Origin: an uncultured Oscillospiraceae bacterium
Lineage (GTDB): Bacteria; Bacillota; Clostridia; Oscillospirales; Oscillospiraceae
DNA: 64,000 nucleotides
Assembly (NCBI GenBank): GCA_947625285.1
Contig: CANQNS010000003.1
Span: forward strand, 124,001-188,000
Reading direction: 5' to 3'
Of the stretch, positions 6,202 to 20,090 are shown piece by piece; position 1 is the stretch's first letter, and every line of letters starts with the position of its first letter. The notes under the pieces were generated by a model. The model had not been told where the DNA came from. It made no database searches and saw only the letters and a program-made list of their open reading frames with translations. The position numbers and the translations under genes were made by a program.

Positions 6202-6714
6202 GTGAGCGACGACGAACTGGTCCAGCGGATACGCCTCGGTGACGAGGACGCCGCCGAGACGCTGGTCCGCCGCTATTACGCCGCCATTTTGCGCTACTGC
6301 GCCCATCGCTGCGGCAGCGGCCAGCGGGCGGAGGATCTGACCCAGGAGACCTTTCTGCGGCTGTTCCGGTCCCTGCCGGAGTACGCGGGAAGGGGGCGGC
6401 TCCGGGCGTTTTTGTACACCATCGCGGAGCGGCTGTGCATCGACGAAAGCCGCCGGCCCCGGCCCTATCCGCTGGAGGAGCAGCAATTCCCGGCGGAGTG
6501 CGAGGGCATACGCCGGGCGGAGGACCGGGCGGAGATAGACGCGCTTCTGGACGCGCTGCCCCGGGAGCAGCGGACGGCGGTGCTGCTGCGGTACGGGGAA
6601 CAGCTCAGTTTCCGGGAGATCGGCGACGTGATGGGATGCAGCCTGCGGACGGCCCAGAGCCGGGTCCGATGGGCGTTGAAGAAGATGAGGCAGGTGAAAG
6701 ACGATGCGGGATAA
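6202..6714 (+). CDS. ECF-family RNA polymerase sigma factor
   Basis: A 170-residue two-domain sigma-70 protein of the extracytoplasmic-function group. Region 2 covers about residues 10-85 (QETFLRLFRSLPEY core). Region 4 covers about 105-165, with the helix-turn-helix LSFREIGDVMGCSLRTAQSR. GTG start, with GGGAGG nine bases upstream. Its end overlaps the next gene, a multi-helix membrane protein, by 11 bases. Such coupling usually marks a sigma/anti-sigma pair. Target genes cannot be told from the window. The AT-rich stretch just upstream may hold an autoregulated promoter, but I could not define one. Confidence 0.9.
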   Translation: MSDDELVQRIRLGDEDAAETLVRRYYAAILRYCAHRCGSGQRAEDLTQETFLRLFRSLPEYAGRGRLRAFLYTIAERLCIDESRRPRPYPLEEQQFPAECEGIRRAEDRAEIDALLDALPREQRTAVLLRYGEQLSFREIGDVMGCSLRTAQSRVRWALKKMRQVKDDAG

Positions 6715-8241: not shown

Positions 8242-9111
8242 ATGGAATTGACGATCGACCGGCTGACGAAGCACTACGGCAGCAAGATCGCCGTGGACCG
8301 GGTCAGCGCGACGCTGACGCCCGGCGTCTACGGCCTGCTGGGGGCCAACGGCGCGGGCAAGACCACCCTCATGCGGATGCTGTGCGCCATTTTGGAACCC
8401 ACCTCTGGGGAAGTGCGCCTGGACGGGAAGGACGTGGTCGGCATGGGCCCAGCCTACCGGGACGTACTGGGGTATCTTCCCCAGGATTTCGGCTATTACC
8501 CCACCTACACCGCCGCCGAGTTTTTGGCATACGTCGCGGCCCTCAAGGGCATACCCAGAGAGCAGGCGAAAAAGCGTGTCAAAGAGCTGCTTGGCATGCT
8601 GGAGCTCACGGCCGTGGCGGACAAAAAGATCAAGACCTTCTCCGGCGGCATGAAACAGCGGGTCGGCATCGCCCAGGCTATGCTCAATAACCCGCAGATA
8701 CTCATCTTGGACGAGCCTACCTCCGGCCTGGACCCCAAGGAGCGGATACGGCTTCGCAATCTCCTGTCCGAGTACGCGGGGGACAAGATCGTGATACTGT
8801 CCACCCATATCGTGTCGGACGTGGAGGCCATCGCGGACGTGGTGTTCGTGATGAATAAGGGGCAGTTTCTGGTCCACGGCACTGTCCAGGAGCTGGCGGA
8901 GCAGGTCCGGGGCAAGGTCTGGGAGCTGACGGTGCCACGGGAGCAGGCCCGGCTCTGGCAGGAGGACTTCACGGTGGCCAACTACCGCCATGAGGGGGAC
9001 AATGTGGTGCTTCGCATCATTTCGGACGAGAAACCCTCTGATGGAGCCGTTCCCTGCGAGCCCATACTGGACGACGCGTATCTCTACTACTTCGGCGCGA
9101 AGGAGGCGTAA
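8242..9111 (+). CDS. ABC-2 type transporter ATP-binding protein
   Basis: ATPase subunit of an exporter of the NatA/CcmA-like group. Walker A is GANGAGKTT at residues 34-42. The Q-loop is GYLPQDFGYYP, the signature is SGGMKQRVG, Walker B is LILDEPTSGLD, and the switch histidine lies in STHIVSD. About 75 C-terminal residues beyond the ATPase core form an accessory domain. The permease gene follows directly, and its ribosome site lies inside the end of this gene. The substrate is unknown. Exporters of this build in Clostridia often handle peptides, antibiotics or lipids. Confidence 0.92.
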   Translation: MELTIDRLTKHYGSKIAVDRVSATLTPGVYGLLGANGAGKTTLMRMLCAILEPTSGEVRLDGKDVVGMGPAYRDVLGYLPQDFGYYPTYTAAEFLAYVAALKGIPREQAKKRVKELLGMLELTAVADKKIKTFSGGMKQRVGIAQAMLNNPQILILDEPTSGLDPKERIRLRNLLSEYAGDKIVILSTHIVSDVEAIADVVFVMNKGQFLVHGTVQELAEQVRGKVWELTVPREQARLWQEDFTVANYRHEGDNVVLRIISDEKPSDGAVPCEPILDDAYLYYFGAKEA

Positions 9112-12009: not shown

Positions 12010-12086
12010 GGCGGCGTAGCTCAGTTGGCTAGAGCATGCGGTTCATACCCGCAGTGTCACCGGTTCGAATCCAGTCGCCGCTACCA
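12010..12086 (+). tRNA. tRNA-Met (CAT), elongator type
   Basis: A complete cloverleaf of 77 bases with encoded CCA. The acceptor arm GGCGGCG pairs with CGCCGCT (first pair G-T). Anticodon stem TGCGG/CCGCA encloses loop TTCATAC, anticodon CAT. The T-loop is TTCGAAT. It lacks the GGG/CCC anticodon-stem pairs and C1-A72 mismatch of initiator tRNA. An Ile tRNA with modified CAT cannot be fully excluded. Confidence 0.93.
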
Positions 12087-12088
12087 AT

Positions 12089-12165
12089 GGAGGCTTAGCT
12101 CAGCAGGTTAGAGCGCATGCTTCACACGCATGAGGTCGCGCGTTCGAGTCGCGCAGTCTCCACCA
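12089..12165 (+). tRNA. tRNA-Val (CAC)
   Basis: A cloverleaf of 77 bases with encoded CCA, two bases after tRNA-Met. Acceptor GGAGGCT/AGTCTCC has one G-T pair. Anticodon stem CATGC/GCATG, loop TTCACAC, anticodon CAC. T-stem GCGCG/CGCGC. Confidence 0.95.
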
Positions 12166-12172
12166 TTTTTTT

Positions 12173-12247
12173 GGCCCGTTGGTCAAGTGGTTAAGACACC
12201 GCCCTTTCACGGCGGTAACATGGGTTCGAATCCCGTACGGGTCACCA
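12173..12247 (+). tRNA. tRNA-Glu (TTC)
   Basis: A cloverleaf of 75 bases with encoded CCA. Acceptor GGCCCGT/ACGGGTC has one G-T pair. Anticodon stem CCGCC/GGCGG, loop CTTTCAC, anticodon TTC. Last tRNA of the operon. Confidence 0.95.
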
Positions 12248-12258
12248 GTTTTATCGCT

Positions 12259-12298
12259 CGCAAATCCTTTTTGACGGATTTGCGGGTTTTGCTTTTTT
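12259..12298 (+). terminator. Terminator of the tRNA operon
   Basis: A nine-base-pair stem (CGCAAATCC at 12259-12267 with GGATTTGCG at 12276-12284) followed by a T-rich stretch to 12298. Its end overlaps the stop region of the convergent MATE gene. Confidence 0.85.
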
Positions 12299-14075
12299 AC
12301 GCGGGCGCCCGTATGGTGATCTGAAGGACGTTGAGGCCCATGCTCCGGCGATAAACAAACTCGTCGGCTATCCCCCGCACGAGCCGCAGGCCCACATTCC
12401 GCTCTTTATCCGTATCGGGGGCCGCGTTCAAATAGGCAAGGGGATCGAAGGGCGCGCCGTTGTCCCTGAATTGCAGGAGCATACTGTCGTGCTTGTTGAC
12501 GATCGTGACGTCGAGCCAGCATTTTTTCCCCGCTTTGAACGAGTGCTGAACGATGTTCCCCGCGATCTCCTCAACGAAAAGCGCGATATCTTTCAGGAGC
12601 TTCTCATTTTCCTTGTGGACGGTGGCGTATTCAAAAAACTTCTCGGATACTTCCTGTACCTTGTTCTGGTCGTTTGCGATGGAAAATTCAAGGATGTCCT
12701 TTTCATCGGGCCCGAAGGGCTCCTTTATCAGCATAAGATCGTCGAGAGAAAGGATCGTTTTTTTCTTCTGGATGGCGATGATAAGGTACACCGTGAGCAG
12801 CGTCAGCACCTCACCGATGATAAAGGCGAGCCAGACGCCGTTGCTGCCCATCGGCTTTATCAAAAGCAGCGCGGACAGGACCGTATAAACGAACGACTCC
12901 AAAACGCATATGAGCAGAGCCATGCCTACCTTTTTCGTCGCCTGACAGAAGCTGAGGTAGGTATTATTTATGGCCCTAAACGGCATGGAGATGGCGAACA
13001 TCAGCACGGCCGCTACCGCCATGTCCATAACGGCGGCCTCCGTGATGCCCAGTATCTTGGGCAGGAACCGGGGGAATACCGCCAGCACCACGGCGGCGAT
13101 GCAGTTGATGATGAGCCCTATCTTGATCGACGTTTTCAGCGTGGATCGCAGAGCGGTCCTGTCTTCCTCTCCGTGGAACATCCCGGCGACCGGGACGATG
13201 GCCTGGCCTACGCCCAGGGTGAGCGCGCCAAAGATGTTGTTGGCCTGGTTCCTGACGTTCAGCGCGGCCACGGCGCCAACGCCGATCGCCGTCACCATGA
13301 TGTTGTTGAGGATCACGGATTTTAACGTGTCGCATATCCTGCCCACGGAAGCGGGCGCGCCGGTGATTGTCATGGTGCCCAGTATCTTCCAGGGGCTCTG
13401 GGGCTTTACGAGCTTCAAGGTGTTCTTTTTGCCAACGAAGTGCAGGCAGGCGACCAGCACGGCGATCATGTAGCTCAGCGTCGTGGCAAGGGCCATGCCG
13501 AACATCCCCAGCTTGAAAACGGTCACCATCACGATGTCCAGTATGACGTCGCCTACCGACATGGCCGCGATAGAGCACAGCGGCAATTTGGGGGAGCCGT
13601 CTATCTTCACAAAGCCCATGAGGGCCGTAGTCATGATCGTGGGGATGGTCCCCAGGAAGAACCCCCGGATGTAATCGGCGGACAGGTCCAAAAGCTCGTC
13701 TTTTGCGCCGAGAAGCACCGCCAGCTGTCTGGGGAAGAGCAGGCCCGGCAGCGTTATCACAAGGCCGCTTATCAGCGCGAACAGCAGCGTGACGGTGAAT
13801 ATATTCCTTACTTCTTCCTTGTCGCCCCTGCCCACGGCCTGAGAGGCAAGCGTGGTCCCGCCGCCCGAGCAGATATTCCCCACGGCGGAAAAGACGATCC
13901 CGATGGGGCCCACGATGCCCATCGCCCCCAAGGCGTCCTGGCCTAAAAACTGACCGGCGATGATATTGTCGATGAGCATCCCGGCGGTAGCGGCTATTGC
14001 CGAGAGGATAGAGACAAAAACGAACGACGAATATAAGCTCTTTACGATATAGTCATTTCTGCGGTACAGAGCCAT
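12297..14075 (-). CDS. MATE-family transporter fused to an RsbW-like ATPase domain
   Basis: A fusion of 592 residues. Residues 1 to about 450 form a 12-helix MATE/NorM exporter (IIAGQFLGQDALGAMG and ASVGRICDTLKS regions), which normally moves cationic or lipid-like compounds by ion antiport. After a charged linker, residues about 470-592 form a GHKL/HATPase domain like the anti-sigma kinases RsbW/SpoIIAB: N-box FVEEIAGNIVQHSF with Asn507, DNGAPFDP at 538-545, and the glycine box NVGLRLVRGIADE near 560. MATE proteins end after the helices, so this tail is extra. Last gene of the STAS operon, seven bases after the phosphotransferase, with its GGAGG inside that gene. Confidence 0.88.
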   Translation of the reverse strand: MALYRRNDYIVKSLYSSFVFVSILSAIAATAGMLIDNIIAGQFLGQDALGAMGIVGPIGIVFSAVGNICSGGGTTLASQAVGRGDKEEVRNIFTVTLLFALISGLVITLPGLLFPRQLAVLLGAKDELLDLSADYIRGFFLGTIPTIMTTALMGFVKIDGSPKLPLCSIAAMSVGDVILDIVMVTVFKLGMFGMALATTLSYMIAVLVACLHFVGKKNTLKLVKPQSPWKILGTMTITGAPASVGRICDTLKSVILNNIMVTAIGVGAVAALNVRNQANNIFGALTLGVGQAIVPVAGMFHGEEDRTALRSTLKTSIKIGLIINCIAAVVLAVFPRFLPKILGITEAAVMDMAVAAVLMFAISMPFRAINNTYLSFCQATKKVGMALLICVLESFVYTVLSALLLIKPMGSNGVWLAFIIGEVLTLLTVYLIIAIQKKKTILSLDDLMLIKEPFGPDEKDILEFSIANDQNKVQEVSEKFFEYATVHKENEKLLKDIALFVEEIAGNIVQHSFKAGKKCWLDVTIVNKHDSMLLQFRDNGAPFDPLAYLNAAPDTDKERNVGLRLVRGIADEFVYRRSMGLNVLQITIRAPA

Positions 14076-14082
14076 AGATCCC

Positions 14083-15072
14083 TCAGCCTCCGATTTGCTT
14101 TTTCGATATCTCCGTCATGGCGTCCATGATATCATCCTGCGTTATGATGTAATTGAAGAAACTTTTGATCCCGTCAAAATCATCCGTAACGCCGCATTCG
14201 TCTATCTCCGACAGGGCCATAACGGTGAGCGCGGTCCGATATGCGATGAACTTTTCGATATCGTCCCAATAATGGTCGTCCGTCTTTTTTTCCAGATCGT
14301 ATCCGATGCGGAAATAGGGGAGGATATCTTCGTACAGCAGCTTCTTTCTGTCCTCGCCCGGTTTATATCCCATCAGGAAGCACGACTGCACGAAGCTGGC
14401 TACGTCGTACAGGTAGTTGGCATAGCAGCAGCCGTCGAAATCGAACAGCCAGACGTTATTGCCCTCCACGAAGAAGTTGTTGGCGTGGAAATCCCCGTGG
14501 CATATCCCGAATTTGCCCAGGTCCTCGGGCAGCTCGTCGACCTGCGCCATTATCTTGTCGATATGGTCCAGGACATTCTTGTCCAGCTTATCCTTGCATC
14601 TCTCCCGGGAGGCGAGCATGATGCTTTTCAGGGTGTCCCGCTTATAGTTCATCCCCAGGGCCCGCTCGTCTGTGCTCACGGTATGTATGGTGCCCAGCAG
14701 CTCGCCCACGCAGATGAAGAACATCGGGTTCATGTCGATGGTGGCCTTCACGTTGCCGCGGGCGGTACGGAACATGCAGGCCCGGTAGACCGTGCCGTCG
14801 ATCTCAAATTCCTCCAGGATATGCCCGGTCAGGGAGGTGTTGGGCTCGCATATGGTCTGGGCGTAGGCCTTCAGATCATCCACCCACATCAGCTCGCTCA
14901 TTATGGCGGCTTTGCTCTTTTTGGGCGTGATGCTCACGCGGATCATGTAGGGTTTCTCGGGGAAGATGAACGCATAATTCTGCGTGGAGAAATGCGCCTT
15001 GGCCTCGTTGATGTCAACGCCGTAGCGCTCGAGCAGTATCTCCCGCATCTGGCTCTTGATGGGACTGATCAT
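14083..15072 (-). CDS. APH/choline-kinase-like phosphotransferase
   Basis: A protein-kinase-like small-molecule kinase of 329 residues (aminoglycoside phosphotransferase/homoserine kinase fold). Seen: the catalytic loop GICHGDFHANNFFVEGN with catalytic Asp and Asn, and the metal-binding LFDFDGC. A Lys-containing N-lobe strand (PYMIRVSI) takes the place of the ATP-binding lysine region. The substrate is unknown; relatives phosphorylate hydroxyls of choline, amino sugars, homoserine or antibiotics. It lies between the NRPS-like gene and the MATE-ATPase gene in one transcript direction, which suggests it phosphorylates the product or an acceptor of that pathway. A self-resistance role is also possible. 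Confidence 0.78.
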   Translation of the reverse strand: MISPIKSQMREILLERYGVDINEAKAHFSTQNYAFIFPEKPYMIRVSITPKKSKAAIMSELMWVDDLKAYAQTICEPNTSLTGHILEEFEIDGTVYRACMFRTARGNVKATIDMNPMFFICVGELLGTIHTVSTDERALGMNYKRDTLKSIMLASRERCKDKLDKNVLDHIDKIMAQVDELPEDLGKFGICHGDFHANNFFVEGNNVWLFDFDGCCYANYLYDVASFVQSCFLMGYKPGEDRKKLLYEDILPYFRIGYDLEKKTDDHYWDDIEKFIAYRTALTVMALSEIDECGVTDDFDGIKSFFNYIITQDDIMDAMTEISKKQIGG

Positions 15073-15150
15073 AGTGATAAATATCCTTTCGATGGTATGA
15101 AATGAAAGTACCGGGTATTATAGGCTGACGATGTTTTCCGCGGCGGGAGC

Positions 15151-18108
15151 TCATCCCTCCAGATCCAGGACAGCTTCCTCAAAGTCCTGCCTGCGCTCCA
15201 GCCTGCAGGGGATGCCTTCCGCGTTGAGCAGATCGCACAGCGCGGGGGCGTAGGGATCGTTTTTCAGGCGGGACATATAGGTTATCAGATAGGAATCCGC
15301 CCAGCGCACGATCTCCACCGTTATCGGTATCGCTCCGGCGGGGAGTATGGTGGAGACGTCGATGATATGCTCGTCGATGCCCTTTCCGAAGTGGATCTCT
15401 CCCACGTAGCTTATCCCGAAGGTATAGCGGCCCACCGCCTTTTCGCTGATCTTTGAACAGTAGGCCAGCTTTTCCTCAAGCTTTTGATGGTCTTGGTCCA
15501 GGCGGCGCATCTGCTGGTACTCTCTCTGGGCCGCCGCCGTGATATTGCAAGGGTCGGCCTCCGCCGTTATCCGCTCCCGTATCGCGGCAAGGCCCTGCTT
15601 CACGGGCCGGCGGGCCATGTCCTCCTCAAACGCTATGGAGAGGGTGCCTACGCAGCACTGCATGGTCGCTTCCGCCTGATAAGAGGGCCTTGCGTCAACG
15701 GCCATGGCGGACACGATGGGAACGCCGTCCAGCGCGTTTCTGTCCGCGATCACCTTGCTCATAAAATACGTGAACATGGCCGCGGTGCTCGTATCGTTTT
15801 CCCGGACGAAGCGGTCCGTATTCTCACCGTCAACGGTGAAATGGAAATGCGCGCATCTGCCCTTGTCCTCGATCAAGCCGTCACCGACGGTATAGGCCCG
15901 CTCATATTGGGCCCGCTCCCTCGGGGCGGCCGGCTCATCGGGCAAAAACAGCGTGCTGTCGGCATATTCTCTGGGGTCCTCGGGCGTGTCCGCCAGGATG
16001 AGGCCGTCGATCCCGTCCGGCGTCGTGCCATATTTCCTGCTGCAATAGTAATAGGCCAGCGTCTGCAGGAATTTAAGGCTGCCAACACCGTCGTTCGTCC
16101 CGTGGAACATATCCACGGTCACCTCGCTGCCGCTGTAGCCGATCCGCGTCAAAAACCCATTGTTGCCGCTGCCGCCGATGGTCTTTCTGCCGCCGTCGTT
16201 ATGATGGATAACGGGTCTGTTGTTGTTTATGGCGCAGTAATAGCGGTTCTCGTCACGGACGATCTTAAAGCCGAACGCTTTGAATCTCGCAATAGCCATT
16301 TCCGCCGCGTATTGCAGCGCGGAAGGGTCGATATCCTCATCGAAACGGAGGGAAAAACGCGGCGACTGGGTCTTTCTGTAAAACCGCATGCTCACGGGCG
16401 TGCGAAGTCTGCCCTGGCTGTCGAACTGGTCCTTGAATTTCGGGTCGTCCGCGGCGTTACGCTCCTGGCGCACCGCGCCGTTCCATACGTCCGCCAGCTT
16501 TTGAGGCGTTTTGCACTTGTAGATATTCTCGATGGTGAGCCCCTCAAGCTCCACGGAGAGGATCATGGCCTGGATGGAATCGCCGCCGAGCTCAAAGAAA
16601 TCGTCCGTTATGCCCACGGGGGACACGCCCAGGATCTTCTCAAAGGCCGCGCACAGCGTCTTTTCCTTTTCGCTCTCAGGCGGAACGTATTCGCGCTGGT
16701 CGGCCTTTTCCTTGGGGGCTTTCAGGCTCTTTCGGTCGATCTTCCCGTTGGCGTTGACCGGCAGCTTTTCCAGCTTTACGTAGTGCGTGGGTATCATATA
16801 CTCGGGCAGAGAGGCGGAAAGGGCGTTTTTGATATCGTCCGGCGTAAGCTCTCTGTCGGTGGTATAAAACGCGCACAGGTATGTCTGGCCGTGGGGATTC
16901 ACAAAGCCTTTCACGGCGGCGGAGGTCACGCCCGCCAGGGCCGAGACGGCCGCCTCGGTCTCCCCGAGCTCAACACGCTGGCCGTTGATCTTCACCATCC
17001 AGTCCTTGCGGTCCACATACACGAGATTCCCGTCGGGAAGCATACGGCAGATGTCGTTCGTGTGGAAGCAGACGCTGCCGTCGTCGAGCTTCTGGAAGGC
17101 CTTCTCCGTCTGCTCCGGCAGCTTGTAATAGCCCGACGCTATGTCACCGACGATGCACAGCTCGCCCTCCTCGCCGGCCGTGCCGATATGCCCGTCGTCG
17201 CAAAGGAGGAACGCCTGTATGCCATCCGCCGCTTTTCCTATGGGGGTGTTATCATAGGAGGCGTCCACTTCAAACATCACGGCGACGCCGGCTGTCTCGC
17301 TGCAGCCGTACAGATTCATAAAGCGGTAACCATGCCCGGTGATCCGGGAAACGCGCTCGCTCCCCGTCACCACCAGCCGCAGATCGCTGCTGTCGGTCTT
17401 CAGGAGCTTGAGCATCTGCGGGCTTATGAACGCGGTGGTGATCTTGTGGTCCTCTATATACTGGCCCAGGGCGCGGATGTCCCTGCGCTTTTCCTCGGGC
17501 AAGATATGGACGGTCTGCCCTTGGGAAAGGGGAGTATAGATATCCACCATCATCACGATGAAGCTGAAAGGACCGCAGCACAGGTGGATGTCCTTATCCG
17601 TTGAATCGAACGCCTTGGCATGGCGGACCACAGACGCGGCCATGCTCCGATGGGTGTGTACGATGCCCTTGGGGTTGCCCGATGAACCGGAGGTATAGAT
17701 AAGGAACGCCTTATCGTCCAGCCCGACCGGCACACCCTCGGCGGGCTCATGGGTAAGAGCCTGCTGAACGAGCTCGTCGTCGATGACGAACTTCGCGCCG
17801 CAATCTTTGCTTATATGCTCGATCCTTGCCTGGGGATATTCAGAAGAAAGCGGGGCAAACGCTGCTCCCGCTTTCAACACACCTATCTCGGCCGCGATGT
17901 ATTCGGCGCATCTCGACATGCAAATGGGCACAAGGTCTCCCTTGGTGACGCCCTTATCCATAAGGGCCCCGCAGATCCGGGAGCTTTGCTCATCGAGCTG
18001 GGCATATGTGATATGCCTTTTGCCATCCATATCGATCAGAGCATTCTTTGAGGAATACTTTTCCGATACTTCCCTGAATATCTCAAGGAACGTTTTTGCC
18101 GCGCCCAT
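15151..18108 (-). CDS. Single-module NRPS-like protein: adenylation, carrier, condensation
   Basis: A free-standing module of 985 residues. The adenylation domain covers about 1-465: TSGSSGNPKG at 139-148, NLYGCSETAG, YVDRKDWMVKINGQR, and NGKIDRKSL at its end. The carrier domain is about 475-545 with ELGGDSIQ, where Ser511 would carry phosphopantetheine. Residues about 555-985 form a condensation/alcohol-acyltransferase-like domain with HGTNDG (His669, Asp673). No thioesterase or reductase domain follows. The expected chemistry is activation of one amino or aryl acid, loading on the carrier, and transfer to an acceptor by the last domain. A phosphopantetheinyl transferase must come from elsewhere. 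I did not attempt substrate-code prediction. Confidence 0.88.
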   Translation of the reverse strand: MGAAKTFLEIFREVSEKYSSKNALIDMDGKRHITYAQLDEQSSRICGALMDKGVTKGDLVPICMSRCAEYIAAEIGVLKAGAAFAPLSSEYPQARIEHISKDCGAKFVIDDELVQQALTHEPAEGVPVGLDDKAFLIYTSGSSGNPKGIVHTHRSMAASVVRHAKAFDSTDKDIHLCCGPFSFIVMMVDIYTPLSQGQTVHILPEEKRRDIRALGQYIEDHKITTAFISPQMLKLLKTDSSDLRLVVTGSERVSRITGHGYRFMNLYGCSETAGVAVMFEVDASYDNTPIGKAADGIQAFLLCDDGHIGTAGEEGELCIVGDIASGYYKLPEQTEKAFQKLDDGSVCFHTNDICRMLPDGNLVYVDRKDWMVKINGQRVELGETEAAVSALAGVTSAAVKGFVNPHGQTYLCAFYTTDRELTPDDIKNALSASLPEYMIPTHYVKLEKLPVNANGKIDRKSLKAPKEKADQREYVPPESEKEKTLCAAFEKILGVSPVGITDDFFELGGDSIQAMILSVELEGLTIENIYKCKTPQKLADVWNGAVRQERNAADDPKFKDQFDSQGRLRTPVSMRFYRKTQSPRFSLRFDEDIDPSALQYAAEMAIARFKAFGFKIVRDENRYYCAINNNRPVIHHNDGGRKTIGGSGNNGFLTRIGYSGSEVTVDMFHGTNDGVGSLKFLQTLAYYYCSRKYGTTPDGIDGLILADTPEDPREYADSTLFLPDEPAAPRERAQYERAYTVGDGLIEDKGRCAHFHFTVDGENTDRFVRENDTSTAAMFTYFMSKVIADRNALDGVPIVSAMAVDARPSYQAEATMQCCVGTLSIAFEEDMARRPVKQGLAAIRERITAEADPCNITAAAQREYQQMRRLDQDHQKLEEKLAYCSKISEKAVGRYTFGISYVGEIHFGKGIDEHIIDVSTILPAGAIPITVEIVRWADSYLITYMSRLKNDPYAPALCDLLNAEGIPCRLERRQDFEEAVLDLEG

Positions 18109-18147
18109 AGCTAAACCTCCGATAGCTCAAAATGATCTTCACGCGCC

Positions 18148-18444
18148 TTATTCAATGTTCAAAAGATCGGTGAAGCCCGTCACCTCAAAGATCTCCCGAA
18201 CATCGTCGTTCACATTTTTCACCGTCATCGACCCCTGCTTGTTCATGATCTTCTGGGCGGACAACAGCACGCGCAGCCCCGCGGAGGAGATGTACATAAG
18301 CTCGGACAGGTCGATCACGACCTTCGTGATCCCCTCGTGGCTCTCCTTGAACGCCTTTTCAAACTCAGGAGCGGTCACCGTGTCAAGACGTCCCTTGGGG
18401 GCGAGAAACAGCTGATCTCCATCGACTTTCTTAACGATCTCCAT
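18148..18444 (-). CDS. STAS-domain anti-anti-sigma protein
   Basis: A 98-residue single STAS domain of the SpoIIAA/RsbV kind. In that family the unphosphorylated form binds an anti-sigma kinase and frees its partner. The phosphorylation loop is LMYISSAGLRVLL with Ser53/Ser54; SSAGLR proteins are normally phosphorylated on the second serine. First gene of the operon that ends with the MATE-RsbW fusion, so the fused ATPase is the obvious kinase partner. A GGAGGTAC ribosome site precedes the ATG. The 164 bases upstream hold no gene and no promoter I trust. Confidence 0.9.
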   Translation of the reverse strand: MEIVKKVDGDQLFLAPKGRLDTVTAPEFEKAFKESHEGITKVVIDLSELMYISSAGLRVLLSAQKIMNKQGSMTVKNVNDDVREIFEVTGFTDLLNIE

Positions 18445-18608
18445 GTATGTACCTCCATTATAGTACTATTTTTTGCTATAAATATTGGACTGATCGGCGG
18501 CCCTGACCGCGTTCCCGCGATCGGGCCGGATGCTTTAGCACGGTGCTTGATTAGCCGCTTAAAACTTATACCCATGATTGTACAGCAAAAAGCCAAAAAG
18601 TCAAGCGG

Positions 18609-20090
18609 TCAATTTGCGCCATAATGGCCGGGGCGCAGGGGCTCCGACGAGGGCAGCAGCGCCACCGCGCCGCCGGCGTCCACCTGGGCCTTGGCATAGA
18701 CCGTCCCGCCGCTCTCCACCGTGAGACTGCTGACAAGGGACCGTTCCCGGACCACCCAGACGCCGTTTTCCGCCACGGTCACGTCCAGCGTGGCCCCGCT
18801 CTTGGCGCAGGGCTCGTTTTGGACGTGGCCCTGCAGGTAGTACTGGTCCCGGGTGTAGGCGGAAAGCTGGATATAGGCGGCGTACCGTTCCTGGCAGGGC
18901 CGGCCCCCCAGGCCCAGCGCGGCGTAGCGGACGCCCTCCAGCCCGGACAGGGCGTCCAGGCTCTCCGCTCGATAGGGGACGGCCTTGATGGTGGAGGTGA
19001 GGGCCGCGTCCCCCCAGAGGACCGCGTTCCGGCCCACCGTGACGGACAGGCTGTCGCCCCGCTGGCCGTACCAGCCGGTGCCGTTATAGATATCGCCTTC
19101 GTAAAGGCCGTATGTGAACGTTACGTCAAGGCTCTCCGCCGGGTCCTCGCCGGCGGGGGGCAGGGCGGGGTCGTCGCTGCCGGAGCCGGAGGCGGGGGCG
19201 CAGTCATAGTTGACGCCTGGAAAACCGGTCTGGCCGCCCACGTCCCGCTCGTCGTAATAGCCGCCGTCCGCCCGCTGGTCCCCGTCGTCGTCCATCATCT
19301 GCAGAAGGACCCCGCTGTCGGAGGCGACGCGGGCGTTGTCAAAAACCAGCGCGCCGCTGCCGCGCTTATAGAGCACCGCCGCGTCCCGGCTGTGGATGGC
19401 GGCGCCCTCGTTCACCGTGACCTGGGCCGCGTCCCCGGCCAGCAGCAGGCCGAATACCCCGTCGATGGAGCAGGTCCCGCCCCGGCCGGTGGTCACGCCC
19501 GTATAGCCGCCGGCGGCGTCGTACAGGGGGATGGTGCCAGTGGAGGAGCCCAGCCAGAGGCTCTCCGCGCCGTCCAGCACCGCGCCGTAGGTGACGCCGG
19601 AGACCGTCACGCCGTAGAGCCAGCTCTCGGAGCCCGGGCCGCAGTACAGCCCCCAGCCGGAGCCCAGAGGATCGTTTTTGTCATAGCCCAGGACCCGCCC
19701 GCCGGCGGCGGTGGCGTCGGGGGCGAGGGACAGCTTCGCGTCCACGGCGGCGAAGCTGCCGCCATCGTTGGAGATAAGGCCCCAGCCGGCGGAGCTCACC
19801 TGGCTGCGGACCAGGTCCAGCCCGGCGTCCGGGCCGGAGACGGTCACGGGCTCCGCCTGGCCGGTGACGCCCAGGGTCCAGTCCGGCCCCGCCGGATCCG
19901 ACGCCAGAGGTAAGGAAAGGCTCGCGTCCGTCAGAAGGGCATAGTCGTCCCCGGAGACGGAAAGGGTCCCGCCATAGGCCGCGCCATAGGCGGTCCTGTC
20001 GAGGGGAGGAGCGCTGTCCGCGCATGCGCCGCCGCCTGGCAGCAGACTGGCCGCCACGATGGCCGCGATGATCCGTTTCAGTTTTCGCAC
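18609..20090 (-). CDS. Exported protein of unknown function, beta-helix-like
   Basis: A protein of 493 residues with an N-terminal signal sequence (MRKLKRIIAAIVAASLLPGG). The following GACADS could be a weak lipobox, but it does not fit the usual LxGC pattern well. The rest is rich in Gly, Ser, Asp, Val and Thr, with short alternating strands (SWLYGVTVSGVTYGAVLDG, VTVNEGAAIHS, LTVESGGTVYAKA) like right-handed beta-helix surface proteins. No catalytic motif, LPxTG or SLH repeat is seen. A GTG start at 20090 with AGGAGGC upstream. Probably displayed at the cell surface; function unknown. Confidence 0.6.
   Translation of the reverse strand: MRKLKRIIAAIVAASLLPGGGACADSAPPLDRTAYGAAYGGTLSVSGDDYALLTDASLSLPLASDPAGPDWTLGVTGQAEPVTVSGPDAGLDLVRSQVSSAGWGLISNDGGSFAAVDAKLSLAPDATAAGGRVLGYDKNDPLGSGWGLYCGPGSESWLYGVTVSGVTYGAVLDGAESLWLGSSTGTIPLYDAAGGYTGVTTGRGGTCSIDGVFGLLLAGDAAQVTVNEGAAIHSRDAAVLYKRGSGALVFDNARVASDSGVLLQMMDDDGDQRADGGYYDERDVGGQTGFPGVNYDCAPASGSGSDDPALPPAGEDPAESLDVTFTYGLYEGDIYNGTGWYGQRGDSLSVTVGRNAVLWGDAALTSTIKAVPYRAESLDALSGLEGVRYAALGLGGRPCQERYAAYIQLSAYTRDQYYLQGHVQNEPCAKSGATLDVTVAENGVWVVRERSLVSSLTVESGGTVYAKAQVDAGGAVALLPSSEPLRPGHYGAN

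Follow-up and report, generated by a model that had tools for sequence, protein, structure and literature searches.

Introduction

Partner switches composed of a STAS protein and an RsbW-type kinase are known chiefly for the control of sigma factors, and hence of gene expression. This paper describes an operon of an uncultured Oscillospiraceae bacterium in which a kinase domain of this type forms the C-terminal tail of a MATE exporter. The operon lies within a 64,000-nucleotide stretch of contig CANQNS010000003.1 (positions 124,001 to 188,000; assembly GCA_947625285.1), referred to as the window, and encodes, besides the exporter, a STAS protein, an enzyme resembling a non-ribosomal peptide synthetase (NRPS), and a kinase of the APH fold. 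With the RsbV/RsbW/RsbU and SpoIIAA/SpoIIAB/SpoIIE systems it has in common a STAS protein with an acceptor serine and an RsbW-like kinase domain, as well as, in many of its relatives, a SpoIIE-type PP2C phosphatase. It differs from these systems in that its kinase domain sits at the C-terminal end of an exporter, a cognate sigma factor is not seen, and the operon itself lacks a PP2C gene.

Several described systems resemble the locus in part. We know of no transporter fusion in the SiaABCD system of Pseudomonas aeruginosa. Its STAS/kinase pair has a non-sigma output, in which SiaC acts on SiaD (PMC8457831; structure 6kko), but the target is a diguanylate cyclase to which the free STAS protein binds, unlike the exporter of the window (PMC8457831). 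In Vibrio fischeri, the STAS protein SypA, which possibly has a non-sigma target, acts downstream of the dual kinase/phosphatase SypE; this pair controls biofilm, and the accessible text does not mention an exporter fusion (PMC8256260). Transporters of the SLC26/SulP family carry a partner-switch-type domain, as the exporter of the window does, but in their case it is STAS that is joined to the transporter, not a kinase domain, and the transporters belong to another family (PMC8256260). Moreover, mru0066-mru0071 of Methanobrevibacter ruminantium M1 bring together two serine phosphatases, an anti-sigma factor antagonist, an NRPS, and a MatE protein, for which a role in sensing, in regulating the expression of the NRPS, and in export was proposed in 2010 (PMC2812497). 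By its description, this cluster is like the family of the window in combining PP2C, STAS, NRPS, and MatE genes, but its NRPS has two modules and a terminal release domain, the proposed control is at the level of expression, and a HATPase tail of the MatE protein is not mentioned in the accessible description (PMC2812497). The claim in a preliminary description of the window, prepared from the sequence alone, that no system with such a layout had been described is therefore too strong. Clusters of similar gene content are already known, whereas a description of the MATE-HATPase fusion or its cassette family was not found among open-licence papers. The accessible part of PMC11418112 had no match for 'transporter', and PMC3861447 was set aside because the relevant terms there concern an unrelated contig.

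Results

The operon belongs to a large and widespread family of apparently switch-wired cassettes for biosynthesis and export, with interchangeable enzymes, found in many bacteria. Its four genes are all encoded on the minus strand, with intergenic gaps of 39, 78, and 7 bases. The first encodes a STAS protein of the anti-anti-sigma type (98 amino acids (aa), 18148..18444; Pfam STAS, 2.8e-16; TIGR00377 ant_ant_sig, 71.3 bits, above the cut-off), and is followed by the gene for an NRPS-like enzyme of 985 aa with adenylation (A), carrier (PCP), and condensation-like (C) domains (15151..18108; Pfam and profile-profile comparison). The third gene specifies the APH-fold kinase (329 aa, 14083..15072; Pfam APH, 6.9e-15), in the translation of which HGDFHANN and DFD can be read, and the fourth the MATE exporter with its C-terminal HATPase domain (592 aa, 12297..14075; Pfam MatE, 5.7e-35, and HATPase_c_2, 2.5e-12). 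The open reading frames (ORFs) and their Pfam matches thus bear out the four same-strand genes, sizes, and gaps given in the preliminary description.

The MATE part of the exporter (aa 1-445, 12741..14075, minus strand) contains two MatE stretches according to Pfam and scores 142.2 bits with TIGR00797, below the 147.4-bit cut-off, and plain-MATE matches of the exporter profile (A1) stop near position 445. The tail (aa 451-592, 12297..12725, minus strand) displays the motifs VEEIAGN, RDNGAPF, and VGLRLV, so that the residues of the N-, D-, and G-boxes are all present. Compared with the PDB by sequence alone it gave chance-level matches only, but its AlphaFold2 model (predicted local distance difference test (pLDDT) 82.4) found SpoIIAB, RsbW, and UsfX as best PDB matches, and the tail is predicted to fold as SpoIIAB/RsbW with complete ATP motifs. 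The STAS protein retains the acceptor serine, since its YISSAGL aligns with FMDSSGI of the SpoIIAA encoded in the same genome; Ser54 (codon 18283..18285, minus strand) is aligned with what we take to be, numbering included, the phospho-acceptor of SpoIIAA. A serine pair occupies the acceptor site in all 49 STAS sequences that were aligned beside this SpoIIAA.

Of 394 genomes of the order, at least 39, the own genome included, contain relatives of the exporter that extend into the tail (at least 48 matches, one of which starts at position 151; three candidates were scored per genome and the best matches listed, which makes these numbers lower bounds). Among 398 genomes of the phylum, such relatives occurred in 7 genomes beyond the own one, with E values up to 1e-100. 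An assembly error, raised in the preliminary description as a possible source of the fusion, can be rejected because one-frame relatives exist in many genomes; the fusion is genuine.

The gene neighbourhood of the fusion was compared for the window and 65 further fusion loci of the order, 7 fusion loci of the phylum, and 18 plain-MATE control loci, taken from the best-scoring plain-MATE matches of the order-wide survey. The fetched stretches measured approximately 3 to 20 kb (mean 16.6 kb for the 65 fusion loci and 18.2 kb for the controls). Domains were assigned with profiles built for this analysis at E < 1e-4 (1e-3 in a survey of stand-alone C domains), and Pfam was run on chosen representative loci only; the HATPase profile missed the SpoIIAB of the own genome, so that kinase counts are lower bounds, in the controls as well. 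A STAS gene, a SpoIIE-type phosphatase gene, or a separate HATPase gene was present at 52 of the 73 fusion loci and at none of the 18 controls. Within the whole fetched stretch, the 66 order-level loci contained STAS in 35, SpoIIE in 33, a separate HATPase in 30, and any of these in 45 cases, the corresponding numbers for the 7 phylum-level loci being 4, 7, 2, and 7. Chance proximity of such genes should be rare, because the own genome has 3 STAS and 3 SpoIIE matches in 2.06 Mb. Five fusion loci stand outside these counts (loci are designated by L numbers): STAS, SpoIIE, and HATPase genes are present in L163 and L166, and none of them accompanies the fusion in L164, L165, and L014. The fusion is thus associated with STAS, PP2C, and kinase genes; the exact four-gene order was seen in the window and L031 only.

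The enzymes that accompany the fusion vary between loci. They include GH3 ligases (L047 and L048 by Pfam; L050, L051, L119, and L134 by profile), large NRPSs (L049 by Pfam; L046, L124, and L128 by profile), LPG-synthase-like proteins (L052, L130, and, weakly, L031 by Pfam; L053, L115, and L121 by profile), formyltransferases (L117, L118), GNAT proteins (L052, L121, L176), and ATP-grasp enzymes resembling D-Ala-D-Ala ligase (L041 by Pfam; L042 and L043 by profile), and other companion enzymes occur as well. In L177, genes for SpoIIE, STAS, a STAS-condensation fusion, an A-PCP-C protein, and a MATE-HATPase follow one another in a row.

Further domain and gene combinations were also observed. An AMP-binding acyl ligase in L161 (10603-12594) carries a C-terminal HATPase domain, apparently degenerate and below the Pfam cut-off. 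Its operon also encodes SpoIIE, a MATE-HATPase, and two proteins resembling the C domain, and genes for HATPase and STAS lie with them. STAS is fused to an LCM methyltransferase domain beside a C-domain-like gene in L162 (7647-8906), and to a weak Methyltransf_23 match within the MATE-HATPase locus L041 (976-2280). HD-CE proteins directly adjoin MATE-HATPase or SpoIIE-HATPase genes in L040 and L065 (Pfam) and in L110 and L112 (profile). L065 is a second cassette of the own genome (contig C4, 6602-14525), with genes for a xanthine/uracil-type permease, STAS, an MFS protein extended at its N-terminus by approximately 240 aa, a D-Ala-D-Ala-ligase-like ATP-grasp enzyme, a dCache-HAMP-SpoIIE-HATPase protein, and HD-CE; MFS seems to take the place of MATE in its exporter slot. 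The STAS protein of this cluster is identical to that of the window at 60 of 98 positions.

The nearest relative of the operon is L031, on a contig of an uncultured Acetatifactor sp., where the same four genes stand in the same order and the exporter shows 76% protein identity. The L031 operon continues with an LPG-synthase-like gene (below the Pfam cut-off), a second MATE-HATPase, the tail of which lacks the ATP-site Asn, a SpoIIE-type PP2C phosphatase, and a separate HATPase kinase; the second exporter, the phosphatase, and the kinase are absent from the window operon. The preliminary description had noted that no PP2C gene is nearby, which is correct for the window operon and needs modification for the family, where PP2C and separate kinase genes are frequent.

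DNA similarity between the two loci (72.7%) is confined to positions 12316-18395 of the window. The GC content of the window operon is 56.6%, as compared to 47.4% for the L031 operon and 62% and 61% for the window flanks, and AGA and AGG together account for 33% of the Arg codons in the operon vs 9% in nine other window genes. Among 59 other genomes, the best match of the exporter has 33% identity, and among 393 other genomes, the best match of the C domain is a stand-alone protein with 25% identity. On the basis of the limited DNA similarity, GC content, Arg codon usage, and remote matches in other genomes, the operon was probably acquired horizontally. Integration at the neighbouring tRNA genes (12010-12247) with an att repeat was considered and rejected, the only matches being of 12 and 13 bases and likely due to chance. 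Between these tRNA genes and the 3' end of the operon lies a terminator-like hairpin (12256..12287, plus strand; 5 such hairpins found in the region vs 5.5 expected), and upstream of the STAS gene a match to the sigma-70-type promoter consensus, TTGACT-16-TACAAT (18577..18604, minus strand; 5 found in the region vs 4.2 expected), was detected by consensus only. A 493-aa ORF without Pfam match (18609-20090) adjoins the 5' end of the operon.

The fusion tails are of two sorts. Three ATP-site residues were seen in 42 of 69 tails, including that of the window, and not seen in the other 27, of which at least one (L044) was scored degenerate with its D-box outside the aligned stretch and no residue change seen. 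On the same strand within 6 kb, degenerate-tail loci had a separate HATPase gene in 20 of 27 and a SpoIIE gene in 23 of 27 cases, vs 8 and 9 of 42 for intact-tail loci, and a STAS gene was found in 16 of 27 vs 17 of 42. In a tree of 67 of the fusion genes (the MATE part of the two others was short or not found), the distribution of the sorts needs 5 changes, 2 of them forced, with 2 independent pairs on supported branches. Since the sorts fall into few clades, the association of degenerate tails with SpoIIE and kinase genes, although strong by raw counts, is a pattern and not an independent statistical test. It would fit that intact tails are themselves the kinase and degenerate tails docking platforms.

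In the NRPS-like enzyme, the A domain (aa 11-456, 16741..18078, minus strand; Pfam AMP-binding, 7.9e-66) has linear gramicidin synthase A (LgrA) as best PDB match. The alignment places Ile where FDGSALDIF of LgrA has Asp, a residue that presumably holds the alpha-amino group of amino acid substrates, and the residue string FSFIVMMVDIY is identical in the window and L031. Because of this replacement, a carboxylic acid other than an alpha-amino acid appears the likelier substrate. The carrier domain (aa 484-540, 16489..16659, minus strand; Pfam PP-binding, 8.2e-9) contains LGGDS with Ser511. The last third of the protein is without Pfam match, so Pfam gives no condensation domain; by sequence it had chance-level PDB matches only, and a profile search of the PDB gave none. 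In a profile-profile comparison (hhalign), however, a profile of this domain and seven relatives matched three condensation domains over the HHxxxDG site with 95.2% probability (E 2.7e-8), which supports placing the region (aa 551-985, 15151..16458, minus strand) in the condensation superfamily as an acyltransferase-like domain. Its motif FHGTNDG keeps the second His and the DG of HHxxxDG, this His being present in 33 of 33 aligned sequences. Stand-alone relatives of the domain had STAS, SpoIIE, or HATPase within approximately 1.5 kb in 5 of 29 loci (no control set). In L167, L168, and L169, relatives are embedded in longer proteins of approximately 680-730 aa, and the N-terminus of that in L168 reads like an alpha/beta hydrolase (LHGGGY).

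An APH domain was found in 17 of the 66 loci, fused to STAS in 15 of these 17 (6 of which are also fused to HATPase) and free in the window and L031 only. These fusions tie APH to the switch, so that phosphorylation of the product, which the preliminary description had considered, is not a required role.

No sigma gene is present in the window operon. The only one seen in the neighbourhood is an extracytoplasmic function (ECF) sigma gene at 6202-6714, approximately 5.6 kb away, and we know of no STAS/RsbW control of sigma factors of this class. The preliminary statement that no sigma factor is nearby accordingly holds for the operon and for a cognate sigma factor, and not for the neighbourhood. 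In the segment 6202-7462 the ECF sigma gene is followed by the gene for a 252-aa protein without Pfam match, and an ABC transporter ATPase gene lies at 8242-9111. Sigma-like ORFs were detected in 6 of 73 fusion loci vs 3 of 18 controls with two queries only, which distant sigma factors may escape; a SigF-like ORF lies near the cassettes of L051 and L053. Sigma-like genes are thus no regular part of the cassette, which speaks for direct action of the switch on transport.

Discussion

As a whole, the locus is best explained as an acquired switch-wired cassette in which a partner switch gates export directly, without a sigma factor, a reading to which we assign a probability of roughly 55%. In the mechanism we infer, the A domain would activate a carboxylic acid, probably one without an alpha-amino group, and load it onto the carrier domain, after which the terminal acyltransferase-like domain would hand the acyl group to a small amine or alcohol. 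The MATE exporter would carry the resulting acylated small molecule out of the cell. Its cytoplasmic RsbW/SpoIIAB-type tail would bind the STAS protein and phosphorylate Ser54, and a PP2C phosphatase, which relatives encode in cis and which in the window would probably act in trans (possibly the dCache-HAMP-SpoIIE-HATPase protein of L065), would remove the phosphate upon an outside signal. Bound to the tail, unphosphorylated STAS would then directly switch the exporter on or off, and perhaps the enzyme as well. Direct control of export appears the best reading of the sequence data; that the switch may act on transport and not on transcription, as the preliminary description suggested, would fit a fusion that is found together with STAS, PP2C, and kinase genes and shows no marked link to sigma genes.

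Several observations weigh against this reading. The proposed switch and gating are derived from sequence and predicted structure, and at 21 of the 66 fusion loci the fetched stretch shows none of the three gene types (STAS, SpoIIE, separate HATPase), so that the tail may also act alone or in trans. Kinase activity is not general to fusion tails, as 27 of 69 are without the ATP-site residues or have them beyond the aligned part. A distance-based analysis of STAS/tail co-variation beyond that of the MATE part gave no signal, either for 30 operons (partial r 0.09, p 0.20) or for 23 non-redundant ones (r 0.04, p 0.39). In addition, the PP2C phosphatase is missing from the window operon, SpoIIE-type genes being located elsewhere in the own genome and in the L031 operon. 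With respect to the enzyme, the structure model of the C domain (pLDDT 38, from a two-sequence alignment) was not used, the own genome gave one, partial, phosphopantetheinyl transferase match of the ACPS family, and the available evidence gives no prediction of product or substrate.

A more tentative idea is that STAS and RsbW-like domains serve as plug and socket that link enzymes to the exporter, providing a post-translational switch for making and exporting a molecule together, with an exchangeable enzyme slot that accepts A-PCP-C, GH3, NRPS, ATP-grasp, LPG-synthase-like, or formyltransferase enzymes.

It is unlikely, on present evidence, that STAS and HATPase are mainly docking tags, by which STAS-bearing enzymes are brought to HATPase-bearing exporters for hand-over of the product at the membrane, phosphorylation setting assembly and not gating. 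Such tagging agrees with the presence of STAS on enzymes (APH in 15 of 66 loci, LCM in L162, the weak methyltransferase in L041, condensation in L177) and of HATPase on exporters, and with the gene order in L177, where the STAS-condensation protein precedes A-PCP-C and MATE-HATPase; the 27 degenerate or incompletely aligned tails would suit docking for many members. The STAS protein of the window, however, is a free protein of 98 aa and none of the window enzymes bears STAS, the HATPase-bearing enzyme of L161 makes the assignment of tags not strict, and the lack of a co-variation signal speaks against docking as well.

Still less probable is a conventional partner switch, with the tail as a membrane-bound anti-sigma factor and STAS freeing a sigma factor for transcription of the cassette or of genes elsewhere. 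The proteins that match the tail best in structure, SpoIIAB and RsbW, are anti-sigma factors, an ECF sigma gene lies at 6202-6714, and SigF-like ORFs lie near the cassettes of L051 and L053, but the operon has no sigma gene of its own, the nearby one is of the ECF type, and sigma-like ORFs were found at 6 of 73 fusion loci vs 3 of 18 controls with the two queries. Finally, the tail could be a remnant or a sensor domain that plays no part in export, in an ordinary small biosynthetic cluster that lies beside a STAS gene by chance. This would suit the 21 loci without switch genes and the degenerate tails, but is improbable given that the tail is kept in genomes from other classes of the phylum, that the window tail has all ATP-site motifs, and that switch genes occur at 52 of 73 fusion vs 0 of 18 plain-MATE loci.

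If export is indeed gated directly by the partner switch, a circuit known chiefly for sigma factors would directly control an exporter, in a family spread over several classes of a single phylum. With the exporter-kinase, enzyme-STAS, and ligase-kinase fusions that occur naturally, the idea can be put to a direct test on small soluble proteins. Moreover, the variety of enzymes would suggest novel acylated or amide-linked products that leave the cell upon an outside signal, and the cassettes would be a place to seek new signals exchanged among bacteria or with their host.
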